This document shows positions 33,154-45,179 of a stretch of DNA of 53,958 bases, in pieces. Every line of letters begins with the position of its first letter. Within the stretch, counting starts at the first letter, position 1. Under the pieces are notes generated by a model. That model had not been told where the DNA came from and searched no databases. It saw only the letters and a list, made by a program, of their open reading frames with translations. The translations under genes were made by a program, and so were the position numbers. The stretch is from Acidobacteriota bacterium (GTDB lineage Bacteria; Acidobacteriota; Thermoanaerobaculia; Thermoanaerobaculales; Sulfomarinibacteraceae), in assembly GCA_024641545.1 (NCBI GenBank), contig JAHECW010000013.1:1-53958 (forward strand), read 5' to 3'.

Positions 33154-36100
33154 GTGATCTGCCCGGCCTGTGGTTTTGAAGGCCCGGGCGAGAAGGGCTG
33201 TTGCACCCGGTGCGGGGCCGGGTTGACGGTGCCTGACGGGCCCGCCGACGGCACCGTGGTGTGTCGCGAAGACTCTTGGAGTGGGGAATTTTCCACCCAT
33301 ACCTACGAGCACGACCACACCCTGGGTCTGGACCACGTGCCTGGCGACGAGATGGATCACACCGTGGACTCGGCCGGCCCTGGTGCTTCGTCCGCCGCAA
33401 CCGGCGGGCCGCTCGAGGTCGGTGCCGCCTTCGGCGACCGATATCGGATTGATGCGCTCCTCGGTTTCGGCGGTATGGGTGCGGTCTACAAGGCGTGGGA
33501 CACGCAGGTCGACATTCCGGTTGCGCTCAAGGTGGTCCGGACCGAGGCGACCGCCGACCCCGCCATGACCCGGCAGCTCGACCGGAGATTCAAGCGGGAG
33601 CTCCTTCTCGCCCGCCAGGTGACGCACAAGAACGTCGTCAGGATTCATGATCTCGGCGAGATCGACGGTGTCAAGTTCATCACCATGACCTACATCGACG
33701 GGGAGGATCTCGCCCACATCCAACGCCGCGAGAAAACGCTCAGCGTTCCCGATGCGCTCAGGATCCTCCGCCCGGCGCTGTCGGGTCTCGTGGCCGCGCA
33801 CGCGGCGGGCGTCGTCCACCGCGACCTCAAACCCGCCAACATCATGGTCGAGTCCGCCACCTGTGAGAGCTACATCATGGATTTCGGGATCGCCAAGTCG
33901 TCCGGGACCATCGATGTCGACTCGCTCAAGGGGACCCGGGATTCGAGCGTCAGGGCGCACGCGCACGCGATCGGTGAAACCGCCGCCGGCGGCATCGTCG
34001 GCACCCTGCAGTACATGGCCCCCGAGCAGATGAGTGCCCACAAGGAGGTCGACCAAAGGGCCGATATCTACGCCTTCGGTTTGATCTTCTACGATCTTCT
34101 GGTCGGTCGCCGCCGGATCGAGAAGGCGGCCAGCGCCATCAGTGAGTTCCACGGTCGTGTCGAGAAGGCGCCGCCACCTCCGCGCTCCATCAATGCCGCG
34201 ATTCCCGAGCCCATCGACGAGATCGTCTCGCGCTGCCTCGACCCCGACCCCAAGGCCCGGTTCCAGACCTCCGCCGAGTTGGAGGACGCTTTGAATCGCC
34301 TCGATGCCGAAGGCCACCCCCTCCCGGTCAAGCGGCTGCTCACCGGCAGGCTCATGGCCGCCGCCGCCGCTCTGCTGGTGGTGTTGGTGGGTGGAACGTG
34401 GTGGCTGGCGTCGCTGAGGGGGCCCGCCGGTGAGAGCGAACCGATCTCGGTCCTGGTCGCCGATTTCCTCAACGAGACCGGCGATGCGGCCTTCGACGGG
34501 GCCCTGGAACAGACCCTCGCGATCTCCATGGAGGGCGCGTCGTTCATCAGCGCCTTCCCGTCGGCCAACGCCCGCAAGATCGCCGAGCAAATCCAGCCCG
34601 GCAGTGTGCTCGACGAGAACATCGCTCGGCTGGTCTCCAGGCGTGAGGGCGTGAGCGTGATTCTCGTGGGCTCCATCGCCGGCGACGACGGGGGATACAC
34701 GGTCTCGGTCAAAGCCCTCGATCCCGGGGTCGATGCGGGCGGGGGCCGGCCGTTGGCGTCGGCCAGGGCGTCCGCCGGCGACAAGGATGGCGTGCTCGCC
34801 GCGGTCGCCAAAGTCGCCGCCGAGCTCCGCGGCGATCTCGGCGACTCGACGCCCAAGAGCGATCGGCTGGCGGCGGCGGAGACCTTCACCACCGCGTCCC
34901 TCGACGCCATGCGGGCCTATGCCCAGGGCCAGGATCTCTCGGTTCAGGGCAGGTTCGAGGACGCGTTGAAGTCCTACGAGGCGGCCGTCGAATTCGACCC
35001 GGAGTTCGGCCGGGCCTATGCCGGGATGGGTGTGGTCTACGGCAACCTCCGCCAGGAGGAACGGGCCGAGGAGAGCTATCAGAAGGCGCTCCAACACCTC
35101 GACCGGATGTCGGAGCGCGAACGCTACCGGACTCTCGGCGGCTACTACCTGCTGGTTTCGCACAACTACGAGAAGGCGATCGAGAACTACGAGACCCTCG
35201 TCGCGCTCTTCCCGGCCGACGGCGGGGGGCACTCCAACCTCGCCTTCGCCTATCTCAGCATGCGCAACTTCGACAAGGCGGTCGCCTCCGGCGCCGAGGC
35301 GGTTGAGCTCGACCCCAACAACGTGATCAAGCGGATGAACTACGCCATGTACGCCATGTACGCCGGCGACTTCGAGACCTCCATCGACGAGTCGAAGATG
35401 GTGCTCGAGCAGAACCCGGCCTTCGGGTATGCCAAGTTCACCCTCGGGCGTTCGGCCATGGCCGCCGGCGACTTCGAGACGGCGCGCGGCGCCTTCGACG
35501 TCCTCGGACCCGAAGGTGGGATGGGTTCGTCCCTTGCCCCCATCGGCAGCGCCGATCTCGAGATGGTCCTCGGCCGTTACCGAGCGGCCGTCGAGGTTCT
35601 CGAGCCGGCCATCGAGGCGTCTGAGAATCCGTTCGAGAAAGCCGCCATGCTGGTGGCCCTGGCCGAGGCCGATCTGGCGCGCGGCGAGGCGGATCGGGCA
35701 CGCGAAACCGCCCGGCGGGCGGTGGAGCTCAGCAAGCACGACAGCGTGCTCTACCTCGCCGCCCGGGTGCTGCTCTTCGCCGGCGACGCCGACGGGATGG
35801 ATGCGATCGCCGGCCAGCTCGACGACAAGCTCCAGAGCCAGACCACCGCCCTCGCCGGCCTGCTCCGCGGCGAGCGGGCGCTGCACGAGGGCTTCCTGCC
35901 CGCGGCCATCCGCGAGTTCCGCCAGGCATGGCAGGAGTACGACTTCTGGTTCGCCCACTACCTCATGGGCCGCGCCTACTTCGAGGCCGGACACTACCCC
36001 GAGGCCCTCGACGAGCTCGATCTGTGCCTCCGCCGTAAGGGCGAGATCACCGATGTCTTCCTGGTCGACAGCGCGACCCTGCGCCACTTCCCGCCCGCCC

Positions 36101-36252
36101 TGTACTGGCTCGCCCGGACCCAGGAGGCCATGGGCAGCCGGGCATCGGCGATGGAGCTCTACGGCCGGTACCTCGGGCTGCGCAAGGCGGCCGACACTCC
36201 CGATGAGCTTGCCGAGGATGCGAAGGCGCGGATCGCACCATCGCAGGGTTGA
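33154..36252 (+). CDS. Transmembrane Ser/Thr protein kinase with zinc ribbon and C-terminal TPRs
   Basis: This 1,032-residue Hanks-type kinase starts at GTG 33154. The N-terminus holds a zinc ribbon (Cys-x2-Cys in 'MICPACGFEG' and 'CTRCGAGL') and a His/Asp-rich linker. The kinase domain (~98-370) has a glycine loop 'LLGFGGMGAVYKAWD', lysine in 'VALKVV', catalytic loop 'HRDLKPANIM', 'DFG' metal site, and 'MAPEQM'. The activation segment between DFG and APE is long (~45 residues). One membrane helix ('LMAAAAALLVVLVGGTWWLASL', ~400-421) separates it from an extracytoplasmic region with a FlgO-like 'ISVLVADFLNETGDAAFDGALEQ' (as part) and about ten TPR-like repeats (~590-1000). Signals or partner proteins presumably bind the TPRs. 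Monocistronic. The FHA proteins in this window are possible readers, by inference only. Confidence 0.95.
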   Translation: MICPACGFEGPGEKGCCTRCGAGLTVPDGPADGTVVCREDSWSGEFSTHTYEHDHTLGLDHVPGDEMDHTVDSAGPGASSAATGGPLEVGAAFGDRYRIDALLGFGGMGAVYKAWDTQVDIPVALKVVRTEATADPAMTRQLDRRFKRELLLARQVTHKNVVRIHDLGEIDGVKFITMTYIDGEDLAHIQRREKTLSVPDALRILRPALSGLVAAHAAGVVHRDLKPANIMVESATCESYIMDFGIAKSSGTIDVDSLKGTRDSSVRAHAHAIGETAAGGIVGTLQYMAPEQMSAHKEVDQRADIYAFGLIFYDLLVGRRRIEKAASAISEFHGRVEKAPPPPRSINAAIPEPIDEIVSRCLDPDPKARFQTSAELEDALNRLDAEGHPLPVKRLLTGRLMAAAAALLVVLVGGTWWLASLRGPAGESEPISVLVADFLNETGDAAFDGALEQTLAISMEGASFISAFPSANARKIAEQIQPGSVLDENIARLVSRREGVSVILVGSIAGDDGGYTVSVKALDPGVDAGGGRPLASARASAGDKDGVLAAVAKVAAELRGDLGDSTPKSDRLAAAETFTTASLDAMRAYAQGQDLSVQGRFEDALKSYEAAVEFDPEFGRAYAGMGVVYGNLRQEERAEESYQKALQHLDRMSERERYRTLGGYYLLVSHNYEKAIENYETLVALFPADGGGHSNLAFAYLSMRNFDKAVASGAEAVELDPNNVIKRMNYAMYAMYAGDFETSIDESKMVLEQNPAFGYAKFTLGRSAMAAGDFETARGAFDVLGPEGGMGSSLAPIGSADLEMVLGRYRAAVEVLEPAIEASENPFEKAAMLVALAEADLARGEADRARETARRAVELSKHDSVLYLAARVLLFAGDADGMDAIAGQLDDKLQSQTTALAGLLRGERALHEGFLPAAIREFRQAWQEYDFWFAHYLMGRAYFEAGHYPEALDELDLCLRRKGEITDVFLVDSATLRHFPPALYWLARTQEAMGSRASAMELYGRYLGLRKAADTPDELAEDAKARIAPSQG

Positions 36253-36766: not shown

Positions 36767-39700
36767 CTACTGGAGCACGATGGCCAGCTTCTCACCCTGG
36801 GCGTTCCTGGTGTTGATCTGGTTCGTGGTGGGGTGGTAGATCTTCAGGAAATAGCAACCCTTCGCCTGGTTCGAAGTGTCCCAGTTGAGCTGCCAATCGC
36901 CGCCGTTGTAGCGAAGGTCGGACTGCCCCGCGTCCTCGGGCAGGTCGAGTATGGCGATGGGGGCGCCGACCGGGTTGCCTCCGGCGTCGCAGGCGGCGAA
37001 TCCGGTGGCCGTGATTTCGAGCAGGTTCGGGACGACGTAGCTGGGTACCTTCTGCCCGGTGACCGCGTCGGCGTAGTACCACTTCAGCGGCAGTGCCGAG
37101 CCGGCGTTGATCGCGACGTAGGGCCGCCACGGCGTGCTGAAGCCGATGAAGCTCCAGTTGGGGACCGGGTCGATGACGTTGATGGTGACGGTCCCCGCGG
37201 CCGAAGCGTCCGAGCCGTCGGAAACCACGAAGGTGAAACTGTCGATGCCGATGAAGCTCGGTCCGGGTGTGTAGGTGAAGGCCCCGGTGGCCGGATCGAC
37301 GACCGCGATGCCGGAGGTCGGTCCGGTCCCGAGCGCGAAGCTCACGGAGTCCCCGGCGTCAACGTCATACCCGACGAGAACGCCGTTGAGCGGCGTGTTC
37401 TCGAGAGCCTCGAAGGCGGCGTCCACGGCCACCGGCGGGTCATTTTCCGGGGTGACGTTGATGGTCACGGTTGCCGGATCGGAGTACAGGCCGCCGTCGA
37501 ATGCCCTGAACGTGAAGCTGTCGGTGCCGTTGAAGTTGGCGGCGGGCGTGTAGGTGAAGGCGCCGCCGGAGACGATGACTACCGTGCCGTTGGCTGCGCC
37601 GGTCACCGGCGAGAAGCTCAGCACGTCGCCGTCCGCGTCCGTCGCCGAGAGGGCGCCGTCGACCGGGGTGTCCTCAGCGGTCGAGACCGAACCGTTCTGC
37701 GCCACAGGCGCGTCCGCAACCGCTGTCACGGTCACGGACACGGTTGCGCCGGCGGTGAGCGTGCCGTCGCCGACCTCGACGGCGAAGGAGTCGGTTCCGT
37801 TGAGGTTCGGATTCGGGGTGTAGGTGAAGATACCGGTGCCGGCGTCGATGGTCGCCTGGCCCTCGGTGGGTGGTGTCGTGATCGAGTAGGTGAGGGTGTC
37901 GCCGTCGACGTCACTGGCGTCCATGGCGCCCTCGACGGACCCGTCCTCGTCGACCGTGACGCTGACGTTGCTCATGGTGGGCGCATCATTGACCGGGTCG
38001 ACGGTGATGGTCACGGTGGCGATGTTCGAGTCCGAAACGCCGTCGTTGGCGAGGTAGGTGAAGCTGTCCGGCCCGTTGTAGTTCGCGGTCGGGGTGTAGG
38101 TGAAGGCGCCGCTGGCGGGATCGTCGAGGGTCACGGAGCCGTTCGTCGGCTCGGTCGTGATCGAGTAGGTGAGGCTCTCGCCGGGCGTGTCGTGGGCGAC
38201 GAGGAACTCCGTCAACACCCAGTCCTCGTCGATATTGAAGGAGAGATCGTCGGCAATCGGGGCCGGGTTGATGATGGTCAGCGGGACCGCCACCCAGTTG
38301 TTGACCTCGTTCTTCTCCGAGATCTCGAGGGTGTCGTCGACATAGAGCACGAGCGAGTAGGTGCCGGGACCGATCATCGGGATGCTGAGGTCGATGGGAC
38401 CGAACGTCTCGGAGCTACCGAACGCCAGGGTCGTGCATTCCGTCGGTGTCGGAAGACTCTCGCAATCGACATTCGGTAGCGATTCGGCGATCGGTGTGCA
38501 GATCAAGAGGTCGAGGGTTTCCTTCTCCGAATTTGGAAGCGACAACAGACGATCGATCTCAGTCTCGGGACAAATGTGGAATCCGTGGTTCAGGAAACCG
38601 TTCTCCGCATTCGCATCGCCGTTACCTACGTTGTGGAGCGTCCAACCGCCGGCGGGGAAGCCGGCCAGGGTGCCGCCCGCCGCGGCCTCGACCGGTGTCG
38701 TGTTGACATTCTCAGCGACGAGATCGGGGGCGTTCGAGGCGACGTTGCAGTTGACCGGGTTGTCGGGATCGCAGGGCAGCGGCACGACCACCAGGCTCGG
38801 CGGGTCCACCAACGGGTCGTAGACCAGACCGCCTTCCACCTTGAGGTTGGTGCCGAGCTTGAACGCCCGGAGGGTGACCTTGACGTCGCTCGACGCCGGC
38901 GGCGCCTCGGTGGTGCCGTCCGGGGTGTAATCATCCGACGGCGCCATGGTGAAGGTCGAGTTGATGACGAAGGGGTTGATGACGAAGGGGTTGATCACGA
39001 AGGGATTGATGACGAACGGGTTGATCACGAACGGATTGTTGACGTCGTCTTGGGGATCCTGGATGACATTGGCCAGGATCTGCGGTTGGGCCACGTTGAC
39101 CGCGCCGCAGCCGTTGAGGCCGCCGTAGAGCGATCCCTTGTAGACGATGAGCTGGAAGGCATAGCCGGCATCGAGGTAGGCCTGGGCGTTGTCGATGTTG
39201 ATGAGCGGCAGATAGCTCGAGGCGGTGTTGCTCTCCCCGGCGGTCACCGTCCAGGTGGTGTCGGTCACCGCGGTGATCTCCCCGAGGGAGCTGTTGATGA
39301 CAAAGGGGTTGATCACGAATGGGTTGATGACAAACGGGTTGATGACGAACGGGTTGATCACGAAGGGGTTGATGACGAAGGGATTGATGACGAAGGGGTT
39401 GATCACGAAGGGGTTCGCCGCGCCGTCGTTGATCACGAAGGGGTTGATCACGAACGGATCGGTGATCTCCGGGTACTGGGCATCCTCGAAACCGTCGAGG
39501 GCGGCGACCGGCGGGTTGGCCGGATCGAGGTTGAGGGTCACCGTTCCGCTCGGGCAGTCGGGCGAGGAGCACGAGGTCGTCTGGGAAACCCGGATCTTGA
39601 TCGGTGGTGTGGCCCAGTCTTCGACATAGACCATCAGCGCCGTGCCGGAATGGGCGAAAATCTCGATCTCGCCCGAGTCGTTGTCCGGGTTGTTCCGGAC

Positions 39701-41956
39701 AAATGACGCTCCATTGAAGCCTTCGGTGATCTCGATGAAATAACTCTGCGTGTCGCCGGTCTCATTGCTGATCGAGATCGGGAACCCGCGCTGGAACCCG
39801 AGCTGCTTGTAGCTTGTCGGCGCGCTCAGCACGAGCCCGGCATCGACCTTGGAAGTCAGGACATCGGTGTTGCGCGAGCCGGCGTTTTCGCACTGGTCGT
39901 CGAACGGGGTGGTGTAGAACTGGTATCCCTCCCACTCGTAGGGTCCCGGCGGCGGGATGAGGTGGCGGTTGTCGGCGAAGATGGAGTGGAAGCCCTGGTA
40001 GGGCACGTCGCCGGCGCCCGTCGCCCAGCGCCAGGCCCCGTCGTCGAAGGTGAACTGGGCCAGGGGCGCAAGGTCCACATAGTCGCCGATGAAGGGCGAG
40101 GTCCCGGCCGCCGATTGCGGCGCGTTGACCCGGTTGACCTGGCGGATACAGGGAGGATACGGGTCCTCGCCGGGATCCGGCTCGCCCGAATCGGGGCTGC
40201 ACGGTGAGTTCACCGCCGCAACGTCGGTGAAGTCCTCACCGTCGGAGAGGTCGGCGCCGGCGCGGATCGGGTAGCGCGAGACCTGGGTCGTCGACCCCGG
40301 GTTCAACAGGTCGCCGGTGGCCGGGTCGAGCAGCGCCGCCCGGAGGTCGAGCACCCGGTCGTAGCCGCTGATGAAGACCGCAGAAGCACCTGTGTCGGCG
40401 TCGGATTCGATCGACTCTGCGTAGGTTCCGGATCCATAGTTGTCGATCCGGCCTCGTGATTCGTAGTAGGCGAGCATGAGCCGGCCGCCGCCGAAGCTGA
40501 GCTTGGGCATGACCTGGGGTCCGGACGAGCGTTCCTCGAAAAGGGTGCCGAAACCGGGTTTGGGCGCCGCGCCGGTGTCGCGATCGGCCATGTCTACCGC
40601 GAGTCGATTTCCTGGGTTGCCGTGAATGTCGGTCCAGCTGTTGCCGCCGTTGTTCGAACGAACGACGACGATCCGCGGCGATCCGCCGTCAAGGGGCTTC
40701 TTGAAGGTCAACTCATCGTCAGGGTCGATCCCGACCCGCTCCTGCCAGGCCGCGAAGAGCGTGCCCTGATCGGTCACCGCGGCGGTGGGGAAGCCGTTGG
40801 AGCGGAAGGCCACCTCGGGGAAGCCGTAATTCGGTGTGGCGCTGAGCGGCGCGCCGGTGGTCGAAATCGTCGGCTGGTCGAACGCCGCCATGGGCACCAT
40901 GGTGCCGGTGACGACGACCGGTTTGCTCCACTTCCTGCCGTAGTCGGTGGACTTGACCATGAGGATCGCGTCCGGCGCCCAGAAGTGGCGCCAGATCATG
41001 TAGATGGTTCCGCCGCCGGTGGTGGTCGGTTTGCCGCCCCTCGGGTCGACGGCGAGCGCCGAGCCCTGGTTCTGGTTGTAGGGCGGATTGAGCTTTTGCG
41101 GCGTGAAGGTCACGCCGCCGTCGGTGGAACGAGCGAAGCTGACCTTGCTCTGGAACTTGCCGTCCTTGTCGAGGCCGTTGAAGGTCGAGTAGCTGACGTA
41201 GACCCGGTCGGCGCAGAGGTCCGCGTTGGGCTCGCGGAAGATGTCGACCTCGATGTCGGGCTTGTCGAGGAAGTAGCCGTTGGTGGCGTTGTTGCCCGAC
41301 TCGACGACCGTCATTCCCCGATAGACGATGGAGTCGCCGCCCTCGTTGTTGTTGAGATCCTGATAGCGGGCGACGACGAGCTTGCTCTCGTGGCCGCGGG
41401 TGAAGGCCATGAAGACGACGTAGAACTTGCCGCACGGACCGGGCGCCACCACCGGGTCGGTGGCGGCCTGGAGGCCGCGGACCGGTGCTGCGAGCGATGC
41501 CGGCGAGGCGTCGAAAGGCCCGCCGGGCAGGAACGCGCCGCTCCAGGTGAGCCCGCCGTCATACGAGCGGCTCATCCCGACCCACGCCTCGGCCGCGGCC
41601 ATCGGCGGCAGGTGAATCTCGGGTAGCGAAATCCACGAGGCGGCCATCATGATGGTCCGCGCCGTGGTGACCAGCGCGACCATGGTCTCGGTCTCGCCGA
41701 GCCCGACGTCGTCGGCGATGTCAACCGCCCGGTAGTCGTTGAAGAACGCAACGAGGTGATCGGGGTTGCGGGTCGAGGCGGCGATGGAGGGTTCCACCTG
41801 GCGCTGGAGGTAGCCGTCGCCCTTGAGCTCCCAGTCGGGATCGTCGTTCGGAAAGACGACCGGGAGCACGTTGATGTTCTCCCCGGCCTGCTGCGCCGTG
41901 GCCGGGGCGGGCACCAGCGCCAGAACCGCCAGCACAAAAATGATAGTGAGTCTCAT
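36767..41956 (-). CDS. Giant secreted protein: Asp-box region, NPFVI pentapeptide arrays, CARDB, cadherin-like repeats, PxKF-like end
   Basis: This 1,729-residue exported protein has signal peptide 'RLTIIFVLAVLALVPAPATA'. Residues ~25-740 look like a sialidase/BNR-type propeller, with Asp boxes such as 'SYDGGLTWSG', 'STDGGVTFTP', 'STDYGRKWSK' and 'SNNGGNSWTD'. Residues 834-888 hold ten PFVIN units plus one DGAAN variant; residues 975-999 hold five more. A CARDB-like domain follows (~1070-1228; 'LYVDDTLEISEKNEVNNWVAV'), then four ~93-residue cadherin-like/VCBS-type repeats (~1229-1602; 'GAFTYTPTANYNGPDSFTYL'). The end resembles a PxKF domain ('YNGGDWQLNWDTSNQAKGCY'). ATG 41956 has GGGAGG upstream. 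Likely a surface or released binding protein; the role of the pentapeptide arrays is unknown. Confidence 0.88.
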   Translation of the reverse strand: MRLTIIFVLAVLALVPAPATAQQAGENINVLPVVFPNDDPDWELKGDGYLQRQVEPSIAASTRNPDHLVAFFNDYRAVDIADDVGLGETETMVALVTTARTIMMAASWISLPEIHLPPMAAAEAWVGMSRSYDGGLTWSGAFLPGGPFDASPASLAAPVRGLQAATDPVVAPGPCGKFYVVFMAFTRGHESKLVVARYQDLNNNEGGDSIVYRGMTVVESGNNATNGYFLDKPDIEVDIFREPNADLCADRVYVSYSTFNGLDKDGKFQSKVSFARSTDGGVTFTPQKLNPPYNQNQGSALAVDPRGGKPTTTGGGTIYMIWRHFWAPDAILMVKSTDYGRKWSKPVVVTGTMVPMAAFDQPTISTTGAPLSATPNYGFPEVAFRSNGFPTAAVTDQGTLFAAWQERVGIDPDDELTFKKPLDGGSPRIVVVRSNNGGNSWTDIHGNPGNRLAVDMADRDTGAAPKPGFGTLFEERSSGPQVMPKLSFGGGRLMLAYYESRGRIDNYGSGTYAESIESDADTGASAVFISGYDRVLDLRAALLDPATGDLLNPGSTTQVSRYPIRAGADLSDGEDFTDVAAVNSPCSPDSGEPDPGEDPYPPCIRQVNRVNAPQSAAGTSPFIGDYVDLAPLAQFTFDDGAWRWATGAGDVPYQGFHSIFADNRHLIPPPGPYEWEGYQFYTTPFDDQCENAGSRNTDVLTSKVDAGLVLSAPTSYKQLGFQRGFPISISNETGDTQSYFIEITEGFNGASFVRNNPDNDSGEIEIFAHSGTALMVYVEDWATPPIKIRVSQTTSCSSPDCPSGTVTLNLDPANPPVAALDGFEDAQYPEITDPFVINPFVINDGAANPFVINPFVINPFVINPFVINPFVINPFVINPFVINPFVINSSLGEITAVTDTTWTVTAGESNTASSYLPLINIDNAQAYLDAGYAFQLIVYKGSLYGGLNGCGAVNVAQPQILANVIQDPQDDVNNPFVINPFVINPFVINPFVINPFVINSTFTMAPSDDYTPDGTTEAPPASSDVKVTLRAFKLGTNLKVEGGLVYDPLVDPPSLVVVPLPCDPDNPVNCNVASNAPDLVAENVNTTPVEAAAGGTLAGFPAGGWTLHNVGNGDANAENGFLNHGFHICPETEIDRLLSLPNSEKETLDLLICTPIAESLPNVDCESLPTPTECTTLAFGSSETFGPIDLSIPMIGPGTYSLVLYVDDTLEISEKNEVNNWVAVPLTIINPAPIADDLSFNIDEDWVLTEFLVAHDTPGESLTYSITTEPTNGSVTLDDPASGAFTYTPTANYNGPDSFTYLANDGVSDSNIATVTITVDPVNDAPTMSNVSVTVDEDGSVEGAMDASDVDGDTLTYSITTPPTEGQATIDAGTGIFTYTPNPNLNGTDSFAVEVGDGTLTAGATVSVTVTAVADAPVAQNGSVSTAEDTPVDGALSATDADGDVLSFSPVTGAANGTVVIVSGGAFTYTPAANFNGTDSFTFRAFDGGLYSDPATVTINVTPENDPPVAVDAAFEALENTPLNGVLVGYDVDAGDSVSFALGTGPTSGIAVVDPATGAFTYTPGPSFIGIDSFTFVVSDGSDASAAGTVTINVIDPVPNWSFIGFSTPWRPYVAINAGSALPLKWYYADAVTGQKVPSYVVPNLLEITATGFAACDAGGNPVGAPIAILDLPEDAGQSDLRYNGGDWQLNWDTSNQAKGCYFLKIYHPTTNQINTRNAQGEKLAIVLQ
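38960..39034 (-). repeat. Five tandem 15-bp units encoding PFVIN
   Basis: Exactly five 15-bp units (75 bp) encode residues 975-999 of the giant secreted protein. Units differ mostly at third codon positions (GTC/GTG for Val, AAC/AAT for Asn) yet the peptide is unchanged, which points to selection on the protein and not to recent slippage. Confidence 0.95.
39293..39457 (-). repeat. Eleven tandem 15-bp units encoding ten PFVIN and one DGAAN
   Basis: Eleven in-phase 15-bp units (165 bp) encode residues 834-888. Reading along the protein there are two PFVIN, one DGAAN, then eight PFVIN. Synonymous differences are scattered between units. The second array (38960-39034) is 86 residues further on in the protein. 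Confidence 0.95.
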
Positions 41957-42030
41957 CTCCAACCTCCCGCGCCCCCCGAGTGATCTGTCTGTTCGTTTGA
42001 TTTGCATTTGAGCGGATGATAGCACGGGAG

Positions 42031-42054
42031 TCAACCATTCGCGTCCATGGTTGA
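42031..42054. promoter_or_regulatory. 8-bp inverted repeat upstream of the giant secreted protein gene
   Basis: TCAACCAT (42031-42038) and ATGGTTGA (42047-42054) are perfect complements across an 8-nt spacer, 75-98 bases upstream of the ATG at 41956. On the minus strand TTGACT lies at the inner edge of the arm, so a regulator bound here could overlap a -35 box. The surroundings are markedly AT-richer than the genes. Confidence 0.45.
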
Positions 42055-42091
42055 ACAATTATGCAAAATTTCAGTCGACGGTCGTCATTTT

Positions 42092-44881
42092 TCAGCGCAA
42101 CAGCAGCCACAGCACCGACGCGGAGTACGCCACGAAGACGACGGGAATCGCGCGCCGACCGATCCGGGTCCAGAAGGTGCTGCCCCTGAAATTGACCTGG
42201 CCGAGCGAGATCAGCGCCAGCGCAAGACCGGCGAGCACGACAAAGACCTGGAGGGCGGCCAGCAGGCTGAACTCGAGGGTCGGCCAGCCCTGGAACCACG
42301 ACGGTGGGGCGATGGTCACGCTGGCCTGGTCGAAAAACGCGACGTTGGCGAGCTGCCCGGTCATCAGCGCGGCCCAACCCAGGATCATCAAGGTCATGGT
42401 GATCCTGATTATGATCTCGGTGCGTCGGTGGCTGACTGCGAGCGCCATGATCACCTGGTGGAGCGAGACGCCGGCCACGAAAACCAGGATGGTGAGCACG
42501 CTGAATCGGACCGGGTCGTGGAGCACCTCGAAGGCGCGGGCCGCGACCCAGGCGAGGGCGAGGAGGGTCACGGTGGTGGCGAACAGGGCGAGGTCCTTGG
42601 CGCCTGCGTCGAGCCGCCAGGTGGCCGCCAACGGCGGTCTGATCTGGAGGTTCGCCGAGTGGTGGGGACAGGCGTGGAGACAACCGAAACAGAGCTTGCA
42701 GCGGTAGGCCTGTTTACCTTCCAACGGGTGGTGAAAGACCGGACAGCCCGAGAGCTCGGGGGTCCCCTTGTAACAGACGTGGGTCGTGCATGACGAGGCG
42801 CAGACGCTCGGTCTCGCAGTCAACTGGAGCGGCGACGCCGGCGCGAGAACGGTGCCGAGCCGGCCCAGGGGGCAGAGGTGGCGGCACCAGACCTCCCGCT
42901 TGAAGAACACCCCGAAGCCCACCGCGAGGGCGATGAGGACGACGAGGAGCAGGCCCGACGCCACCGGATTGACGAGCAGGTCGTAGACGCGCTCCGCCCA
43001 GACGATGAGGGCGAAGCCGACGATGGCCAACCAGGGTCCGTGCTTGACGACCCAGTTCGGCGGCGGGCGATCCGTCGTGCGTGCCTTCTTGGCCAGATTG
43101 GCGGCGGTGGAGAGAGGACAGATGGTGCACCACACCGGACCGGCGAGGAAGAAGAGGGCAAACACGGTCGGTTCCCAGACCGACCAGATGAGGCTGTTGG
43201 CGATGTTGCCGGCGTGGGTCAGGGGAAACGCCATGCAGAGCACGATGACGGCGGCGAAACCGGCCAGCGCCGACGCCCGCAGCACCGGCAGGCCGCTGCG
43301 CGCGAGCAGCCGCTGCATGAGCGGCGTGGCGGTGATGTCGACGCCAGGCGGAAGCGAGTCTTCGCCGACGCCGCCGAAAATGTGTTCGGAGAGGATCTCG
43401 GGTCCGTCGGCGACCCGCACGGCGAGATCGATCACTTCGCGCAGCTCGGCGACGTTGCGTCGCCGGTAGGTCAGCGACAGCAACGCCTGACGGGCCCCTT
43501 CGGTGATGGTCGGCGGATCCGAGCCGTACCGTTTGAGGAACTCTTCGGCCAGCGGCATGATGTCCTTGGGCCGCTGGACCAGGGGCGGCAGGCTGATCAC
43601 ATCGTCGCAGGCATCGGTGATGGACGAGACCAACCCGTCGCGGTTCTCTACCGGCGGCGATGCCTCGCGGGCGGTCAGAATGACTCGGGTGTCGGGGAAC
43701 GATCCGGGGATGCGATCCTTGTTTCGCATGAGGAACGAACCGAGCAGCTGTTGCACCGAGGGCAGGAGACGGTCGGCGCCGCGCAGCACCAGGGTGCCGC
43801 CGTGGGCGAGTTGAACGCCGCCGCTCGAGTGGTCGCGGGTCGGCAGGCTGCCCCCGAGATCTTCCCCCAGGATGAGCTCGGCCGCCCTTCCCGGGGCGAG
43901 GTCGCGGCAGTTGACGGCGATGAGCGGACCGGACGCCCGCGCCGAATCATCGTGAATCAAACGGGCGGCCAGGGTCTTGCCGGTTCCGTCCTCACCCAGG
44001 AGCAGGAGCGGGCTGATCGAAAGAGCGGATTTCTTGATCTGCTTTCCGATGGTCTTCGAACGGGCGGAGACCGCCACGAAGGTGTCCGGATCATTGTCGC
44101 CCTGGACGAGTCGGGCGATGGCTTCCTTGTCCCGTTGTGAATCGAGAGCATCGGCGGTCGCCTTGTGGACGTTGCGGGCGATGCCGCCGAGCATCTTGCG
44201 CCTGAGCGAGGCCGACTCCTGGAGCGCCGAAGGAAGGGACGCGCCAGGGTAGCGCAGCAGCCGCACATCGGTTACGGCGATGGTGTCGACCGCGGCACCC
44301 CCCTTGGCGAAGACGGATTCGGCGCCGAAGATGCCGCCCTCCCCGAGCCGCGCCAACGGAGGACGACGGGTCTCGCCATCGCCGAGTGAGAGCTCCACGA
44401 CGCCTTCGATCACGACGTAGAAATATTCCTGCTGCTCACCCCGGCGGACCACTACATCGCCCGAGCCGAAGCAGACCTCCTCGCCGGCGGACCGGAGAAA
44501 ACCCACCGTGGCGGGACCGAGCAGGACGGACTCGCCGGAGCTCAAGGCATCGTCGGGATCCGGCTGAGGTGAGACCTTGCGGGTCGGTACGGGTTCAACC
44601 GACAGCTTCAACCCACCCAGCTTGAGTTCCGTCCTGCCTTGGACAAGGACCTCGCGTTCGATTCGTTTGCCGTCGACGCGCGTCCCGTTGGTCGACTGGA
44701 GGTCCTCGATGGTCAGGCCGCGATCGCTGACCTCGAATCGGGCGTGCCGGCGCGAGACCGTGGGGTGGTTGACCACCAGATCGACATCCGGTGCGCAACC
44801 GAGAATGTGGGTTCCGCTCCCGAAGCGGAGATCCGTGTCGCTCTCCGTCGAATGGCCCCACAGACGCCAGGTCGTCTCCAC
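42092..44881 (-). CDS. FHA - cyclic-nucleotide-binding - AAA+ (sigma-54-activator-like) - NapH/NosR-type polyferredoxin membrane fusion
   Basis: A single 929-residue chain joins four parts. An FHA domain (~8-95) has 'PTVSRRHARFEV' and 'DLQSTNGTRVDG'. A cNMP-binding domain follows (~115-220; 'GDVVVRRGEQQEYFYVVIEGVVEL', in part). An AAA+ domain (~270-510) has Walker A 'GEDGTGKTLAARL', but the usual GAFTGA loop is absent and Walker B reads 'GGTLVLRGADRL', without the Asp-Glu pair. The membrane half (~535-929) has about eight helices and Fe-S motifs 'PVWCTICPLS', 'VWCRHLCPLGRLG' and 'RCKLCFGCLHACPH' (a 4Fe-4S ferredoxin site). NapH/NosR-type membranes pass electrons across or within the inner membrane. 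GTG 44881 has GGAGGAGG upstream. No DNA-binding helix-turn-helix follows the AAA+ part. Confidence 0.88.
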   Translation of the reverse strand: METTWRLWGHSTESDTDLRFGSGTHILGCAPDVDLVVNHPTVSRRHARFEVSDRGLTIEDLQSTNGTRVDGKRIEREVLVQGRTELKLGGLKLSVEPVPTRKVSPQPDPDDALSSGESVLLGPATVGFLRSAGEEVCFGSGDVVVRRGEQQEYFYVVIEGVVELSLGDGETRRPPLARLGEGGIFGAESVFAKGGAAVDTIAVTDVRLLRYPGASLPSALQESASLRRKMLGGIARNVHKATADALDSQRDKEAIARLVQGDNDPDTFVAVSARSKTIGKQIKKSALSISPLLLLGEDGTGKTLAARLIHDDSARASGPLIAVNCRDLAPGRAAELILGEDLGGSLPTRDHSSGGVQLAHGGTLVLRGADRLLPSVQQLLGSFLMRNKDRIPGSFPDTRVILTAREASPPVENRDGLVSSITDACDDVISLPPLVQRPKDIMPLAEEFLKRYGSDPPTITEGARQALLSLTYRRRNVAELREVIDLAVRVADGPEILSEHIFGGVGEDSLPPGVDITATPLMQRLLARSGLPVLRASALAGFAAVIVLCMAFPLTHAGNIANSLIWSVWEPTVFALFFLAGPVWCTICPLSTAANLAKKARTTDRPPPNWVVKHGPWLAIVGFALIVWAERVYDLLVNPVASGLLLVVLIALAVGFGVFFKREVWCRHLCPLGRLGTVLAPASPLQLTARPSVCASSCTTHVCYKGTPELSGCPVFHHPLEGKQAYRCKLCFGCLHACPHHSANLQIRPPLAATWRLDAGAKDLALFATTVTLLALAWVAARAFEVLHDPVRFSVLTILVFVAGVSLHQVIMALAVSHRRTEIIIRITMTLMILGWAALMTGQLANVAFFDQASVTIAPPSWFQGWPTLEFSLLAALQVFVVLAGLALALISLGQVNFRGSTFWTRIGRRAIPVVFVAYSASVLWLLLR

Positions 44882-45179
44882 GACTCGACCTCCTCCAACG
44901 TCATCACCGCAGGCGCATGTCCAAGTCCATGGAATCCCGATGAACAACTCAGTTCGGGTGCGCAACCTTGTTCATCGTCGCCGTTTCTACTTTTGGATTG
45001 TAACGGAATTCGTGAATGGCGGGCGGGTTGAACGCGAATTCCATCTGTAAATGAGATGGATGGTCAAGATCGGATTCTCGCTTTGCGGCGATCCTGGCGG
45101 CCATGGCGGTTGGAAGAGGCCGCAGCGACCGCAGAGGCCTCTTCGAAGATACGCCGCCACCGCCCGGAGAGCTCCGCCG
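44882..45179. other. Intergenic region upstream of the fusion gene
   Basis: These 298 bases lie between the stop of threonine synthase and the start of the fusion protein, both on the minus strand. No gene is visible. A GAATTCG...CGAATTC pair (near 45007-45040) and a CCATCT...AGATGG dyad (near 45042-45060) could be regulatory or end the threonine synthase transcript; neither has a T run. Confidence 0.35.

Follow-up and report, generated by a model that had tools for sequence, protein, structure and literature searches.

Two arrays of the pentapeptide NPFVI in a large secreted protein of an Acidobacteriota bacterium probably represent a proline-rich variant of the pentapeptide repeat, a right-handed beta-helix, acting as a stalk; we put the probability of this reading only slightly above one half (about 0.52). 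The arrays lie in a window of 53,958 nucleotides, the whole stretch of DNA that was analysed. Their relatives hold the same position in homologous proteins across the phylum, and differ largely in which five-residue word is repeated.

A secreted protein with two NPFVI arrays

The open reading frame that carries the arrays (36767..42058, minus strand) comprises 1763 codons from a TTG, and an ATG at 41956, preceded by GGAGG, reads as the likelier start. From this ATG the protein appears to open with a signal peptide, MRLTIIFVLAVLALVPAPATA, which is followed in order by a sialidase-like Asp-box part, a beta-sandwich, array 1, a second beta-sandwich with array 2, cadherin/Ig-like repeats and a PxKF end. 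The giant secreted protein of the first-pass annotation is upheld by a 1763-residue frame and by a signal peptide judged from sequence. Profile matching and an AlphaFold2 model delimit a conserved N-terminal part (39509..41836, minus strand), made up of a sialidase-like Asp-box (BNR) domain and the beta-sandwich that the model places ahead of array 1. A family profile gave matches of the N-terminal part to PDB sialidases (E 1.9e-5) that covered only a part, and the Pfam BNR_2 match was weak. Asp boxes can be read in the translation (SYDGGLTW, STDGGVTF, SNNGGNSW), repeated in the S-x-D-x-G-x-T-W manner of sialidase/BNR propellers.

Array 1 (39296..39460, minus strand) reads DPFVI, NPFVI, NDGAA and then NPFVI eight times, 11 units in all, while array 2 (38963..39037, minus strand) consists of five NPFVI units in a loop of the second beta-sandwich. 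The first-pass annotation had counted 15 PFVIN units and one DGAAN unit, grouped as 11 and 5 with 86 residues between the groups and in phase with 15-bp DNA repeats; translation agrees with the count, Tandem Repeats Finder and translation agree with the phase, and the extent given there, 38960-39457, was right within a codon. Both arrays are called as 15-bp tandem repeats (scores 121 and 189), with higher-order periods of 30 and 45 bp scoring slightly above 15 bp. The NDGAA unit (39416..39430, minus strand) is itself in phase and is found again as NDGAA in the same-genus orthologue and as NQGAA in the same-family orthologue.

The 86 residues between the arrays (39038..39295, minus strand) are beta-sandwich-like in the AlphaFold2 model, mostly at pLDDT 66-87 and lower near array 2. 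Foldseek searches with the model of a relative listed a CARDB domain (3idu) weakly for this stretch; all matches were Ig-like or beta-sandwich fragments of the flanking domains, and were uninformative for the array. Domain models place four cadherin/Ig-like (Big_9, Cadherin_4, tandem-95) repeats at 37139..38233 (minus strand) and a C-terminal PxKF-like domain at 36848..37117 (minus strand), the latter at 27.2 bits where its cut-off is 35. For the array-bearing Acidobacteriota protein family, neither Pfam nor NCBIfam yielded a specific model.

The gene just upstream (42092-44965, minus strand) fuses FHA, cyclic-nucleotide-binding and sigma-54-activator AAA domains, and the cysteine clusters of its C-terminal membrane part read like those of a NapH-type polyferredoxin, so that its product would be an unusual signal-to-redox fusion. 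A serine/threonine protein kinase with a TPR tail is encoded at 33154-36252 (plus strand), and a short 21-bp tandem repeat lies inside this kinase gene at 35654-35704.

Homologous arrays of other words across Acidobacteriota

Within the class, NPFV arrays are confined to 3 of 148 genomes: as NPFVI in the window and in a relative of the same genus (G002), the second carrier of this word, and as NPFVL in a member of the same family (G015). Between the arrays, near the 86-residue stretch, the NPFVL orthologue breaks into two frames (L030/L037), through either a frameshift or an assembly error. Across the phylum, 9 of 396 genomes had the wider pattern 4x(NPx[IV]x); the 30 loci fetched belong without exception to the gene family of the window protein. 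From a collection of 80 named loci plus class members, we obtained 64 orthologues in which a period-5 array stands between the two beta domains seen in the window protein; together they carry 35 main unit types. Orthologues of the same class have NPDVS, NQNIS and NPAVF at the homologous place, and the words among the 80 named loci include NPDIS, NPDIT, NPDIE, NPDIA, NPNIS, NPNIT and NPSIT as well as NPALL, NPAIL, NADIE, NFDLT and NANLS. Unit number ranges from none (L041, L060) through 2 (L113) to about 28 (L035).

Most of the 80 loci are from Acidobacteriota, and a few lie in records that carry the label of Myxococcota, Cloacimonadota, Proteobacteria or an archaeon. Three loci in records labelled archaeon (L043, titled Methanomassiliicoccales), Gammaproteobacteria (L115) and Anaeromyxobacter (L112) would reflect transfer or mis-binned contigs. 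No NPFV repeat was found in viral contigs, and the array protein had no match to plasmids and phages.

The arrays share the unit rule N-[P/A]-x-[I/V/L]-x. Among 962 core units, the first residue is N in 97.7% and the fourth, here called position i, is I/V/L/F/M in 96%. At i-2, 115 core units have a residue other than the one usual for their array; it is most often A, V, L, T, S or I, a choice that appears near the canonical pentapeptide set, and an aliphatic i is kept in 83% of these units. Departures from the rule are seen in L096, where GPGIT units just before residue 990 of the family open reading frame have Gly in place of Asn, and in L102 and L114, whose FTPKI/NTPRI-type units (basic residue at i-1, Thr at i+2) may be yet another word of this array.

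In a tree built from the N-terminal part, at least 39 switches of unit type are counted, with 29 changes at i+1, 13 at i-1 and 12 at i, and near relatives mostly have a common unit. Many arrays also contain two in-phase interrupting units: one N-A-E-V-Y-like, which is the sixth unit in 20 of 38, and one N-V-x-V-A-like, which most often comes 7 units later and is followed by 7 more units. Each is flanked on both sides by the same species-specific word. In the sisters L076 and L091, whose N-terminal parts are 85% identical, about 14 units differ as NPNIT versus NPSIT, yet the NPDIT units and the interrupting units hold their places.

In open-licence literature, we found no papers on NPFVI or NPDIS-type repeats in the relevant sense, and none joining Acidobacteria, pentapeptide repeat and sialidase. 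The first-pass view that the repeat is undescribed consequently holds for NPFVI itself, but not as a stand-alone novelty, since NPFVI is one of about 35 unit types at a homologous position.

Silent drift of the DNA and selection on the peptide

The 14 NPFVI units of the window are encoded by 9 distinct DNA versions, and all 16 departures from the DNA consensus are synonymous. With 3.3 of the 15 sites in a unit being synonymous, this outcome has a probability of about 3.5e-11 on a star tree, or 5e-4 if the changes are counted most conservatively, as 5. A peptide maintained while its DNA drifts, as had been proposed from the letters alone, is what these 16 synonymous and 0 amino-acid changes describe. 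Across 63 arrays, codon diversity among identical units had a mean of 0.90 and a median of 0.88 of that expected from codon usage in the rest of the same gene, and the window stood at 1.05. Adjacent units differed by 2.44 per 15 nt versus 2.27 for distant units in the same 63 arrays, with no dependence of synonymous difference on the distance between units. Codon diversity near the expected value and the absence of distance decay argue that the uniform peptide within an array is held by selection on the peptide, and not by recent duplication or conversion.

Codon diversity was low in the same-genus orthologue, at 0.47 of the expected value and with GTG and GTC units nearly alternating, and in L091 (0.57). 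These two arrays look more recently homogenised, and some unit turnover therefore happens. In L047, TCN and AGY serine codons, which one change cannot silently interconvert, are mixed within one NPSIT array. Codons of same-position units in related species were not clearly shared more than those of other units. The orthology of single units is therefore untraceable. Synonymous sites are near saturation, and sites so saturated cannot reveal how a word switch took place.

Relationship to pentapeptide repeats

The arrays can be placed among pentapeptide repeats in the register P(i-2) x(i-1) [I/V/L](i) x(i+1) N(i+2). One pentapeptide would form a single face of a beta-helical coil, its aliphatic residue pointing inward and its Asn-Pro placed at the corner. 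Neighbouring coils would stack like on like, so that selection would keep all the units of a species matched, and the word would be free to switch between lineages. The place of the array in an exported protein, with a propeller-like head on one side and Ig-like repeats on the other, makes a stalk or spacer likely: a rod that would set the distance from the sialidase-like head to the Ig-like/PxKF stem. Its length differs between species, from 2 to about 28 units.

Support for this placement comes through the homologous arrays. The NANLS array of L112 is canonical PF00805 (124.6 bits versus a cut-off of 20.2) and is nested in the tree among NPDVS/NQNIS/NPNVT arrays (SH-aLRT 99), and the NPDFE array of L040 passes the cut-offs of Pentapeptide_3 and _4. 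The array columns of a profile of 34 arrays matched solved pentapeptide proteins, namely designed beta1 (4.8e-17), NP275-NP276 (2.1e-5), Rfr32 (2.7e-5) and Alr5209 (2.8e-4), and the alignments shown keep D/N and I/L in register, although comparing period-5 with period-5 sequences may inflate such scores. The NPFVI stretch alone had no match in the PDB, and the NPFVI array reached no Pfam family, the curated pentapeptide models included.

Pentapeptide repeats have been defined by at least eight tandem five-residue units (PMC7337050), a length that array 1 exceeds with 11 consecutive in-phase units, array 2 alone having 5. Read as P-F-V-I-N, NPFVI departs from the consensus A[D/N]LXX or (S/T/A/V)(D/N)(L/F)(S/T/R)X; the wider array family has its D/N position, and NANLS and NADIE are near the rest. 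Like pentapeptide repeat proteins (PF00805/PF13599/PF13576; MfpA, Qnr, HetL, Rfr32, Alr5209), the arrays keep an unbroken five-residue phase with an aliphatic i, prefer D/N at i-1 (78%, versus 45% in canonical units of related bacteria), often have S/T at i+1, and count canonical members (L112, L040) within their family; the Gly at i+2 in L096 is also that of the canonical consensus. Unlike them, the arrays have Pro at i-2 (82%) and not Ala, Ile/Val at i and not Leu/Phe, Asn at i+2 nearly always, near-identical units and a large secreted host protein. Designed beta1 (4yc5 and relatives), the best profile match, likewise differs in its A-[D/N]-L-x-x units, which are without Pro at i-2 in the stretches shown. 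The V or I core of the arrays, unlike L/F, counts against a pentapeptide helix, as does the fact that both F at i-1 and I at i+1 of NPFVI would face solvent in it; such exposed residues could favour side-by-side association. As to proline, 1338 canonical units of related bacteria have it at i-2 in 3.2%, versus 0-1.1% elsewhere, and published substitutions of Pro at i, i-1 or i+2 abolish function (PMC2964730), so that i-2 is the best site for it. By strict features NPFVI is outside PF00805; it probably works like the pentapeptide class, to which the homologous arrays tie it.

Other repeat families are more distant. The NPDFE array matched the SV2 luminal domain (LD_SV2, PF23894) below threshold (24.5 bits versus 29), and SV2 is a eukaryotic vesicle protein, unlike the array family. 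Extensin-like (PF02095) matches were weak in 26 of 34 members, with scores seen far below the cut-off of 105, and extensins are plant wall proteins, again unlike the family; we judged the Extensin_1 matches to be compositional, probably arising from Pro every five residues. Mycobacterial PPE-MPTR repeats (Pentapeptide_2, PF01469) are secreted and have Asn every fifth residue, as the arrays do, but consist of N-x-G-x-G units without the aliphatic core rule, and PF01469 was absent among Pfam matches at E up to 10.

Structure prediction weighs against the pentapeptide helix, as does the lack of a Pfam match for NPFVI. AlphaFold2 models of the NPFVI and NPDIS arrays, built with 34-37 homologues, gave pLDDT of about 33 (range 31-43) and no secondary structure, versus 80-96 in the flanking domains; we conjecture that misregistered repeats in the alignment may lower these values. 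Nor was the four-unit period of a square coil seen among exceptions to the usual unit (lag 4 z 0.1 in mixed arrays, -3.0 in all). Of the two structures proposed in the first-pass annotation, the beta-helix-like stack is the best supported, whereas the elastic spacer is neither supported nor excluded. More tentatively, we consider it possible that the arrays are an Asn-Pro pentapeptide solenoid of an undescribed class, in which stacking of identical coils would force like units, the array word would change in concert, interrupting units would stay and synonymous sites would be free.

Alternative explanations

The low pLDDT across both modelled arrays, the variable unit number and the frequency of Asn-Pro in turns and linkers would all agree with an intrinsically disordered Asn/Pro-rich spacer between two rigid domains, its motif kept for spacing, solubility or protease resistance and not for a fold. 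Such a spacer is harder to reconcile with a strict five-residue phase in which one position is 96% hydrophobic, with purifying selection while synonymous sites are nearly saturated, and with the canonical pentapeptide array at the same place in L112. Hydrophobic words (NPFVI, NPALL, NPAVF) would moreover be unlikely to be soluble as coil, and on balance we regard disorder as unlikely. Less probable still is a solenoid of five-residue units other than the square pentapeptide helix, for example with three units per turn or as a spiral of Asn-Pro beta-turns. It would fit the I/V core and Asn-Pro corners, which are unlike the usual pentapeptide set, the lack of a known fold recognised by AlphaFold2, and a weak excess of like units in mixed arrays at lags 3 (z 2.9) and 6 (z 1.9) with none at 4. 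The lag 3 signal may however be chance, because 12 lags were tested on 9 partly related arrays, and Pfam classes L112 and L040 as ordinary pentapeptide repeats.

The arrays could also be a by-product of DNA slippage or gene conversion with no constraint on the peptide; recent gene conversion of this kind is what the first-pass annotation had named as refuting its claim. Tandem periods of 15, 30 and 45 bp and the low codon diversity of the same-genus orthologue and L091 are in keeping with such a process. The 63 arrays nevertheless retain most of their expected synonymous diversity, neighbouring units resemble each other no more than distant units do, the 14 NPFVI units of the window have 16 synonymous and 0 amino-acid changes, and the places of interrupting units are kept in many relatives. 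We therefore rejected unconstrained slippage or conversion on the codon diversity within arrays, and consider it very improbable.

Implications

Within any one species the repeat peptide of this family is strictly uniform, but between species it has been replaced by another word dozens of times. The homologous arrays, several dozen in number and distinguished largely by their word, form a natural series, with DNA-level evidence that selection, and not recent copying, keeps the words equal. This opens two questions to direct testing: which five-residue words are able to form a solenoid, words with Pro in nearly every unit included (a feature that, to our knowledge, no solved pentapeptide protein has), and how all units of a repeat come to change together.
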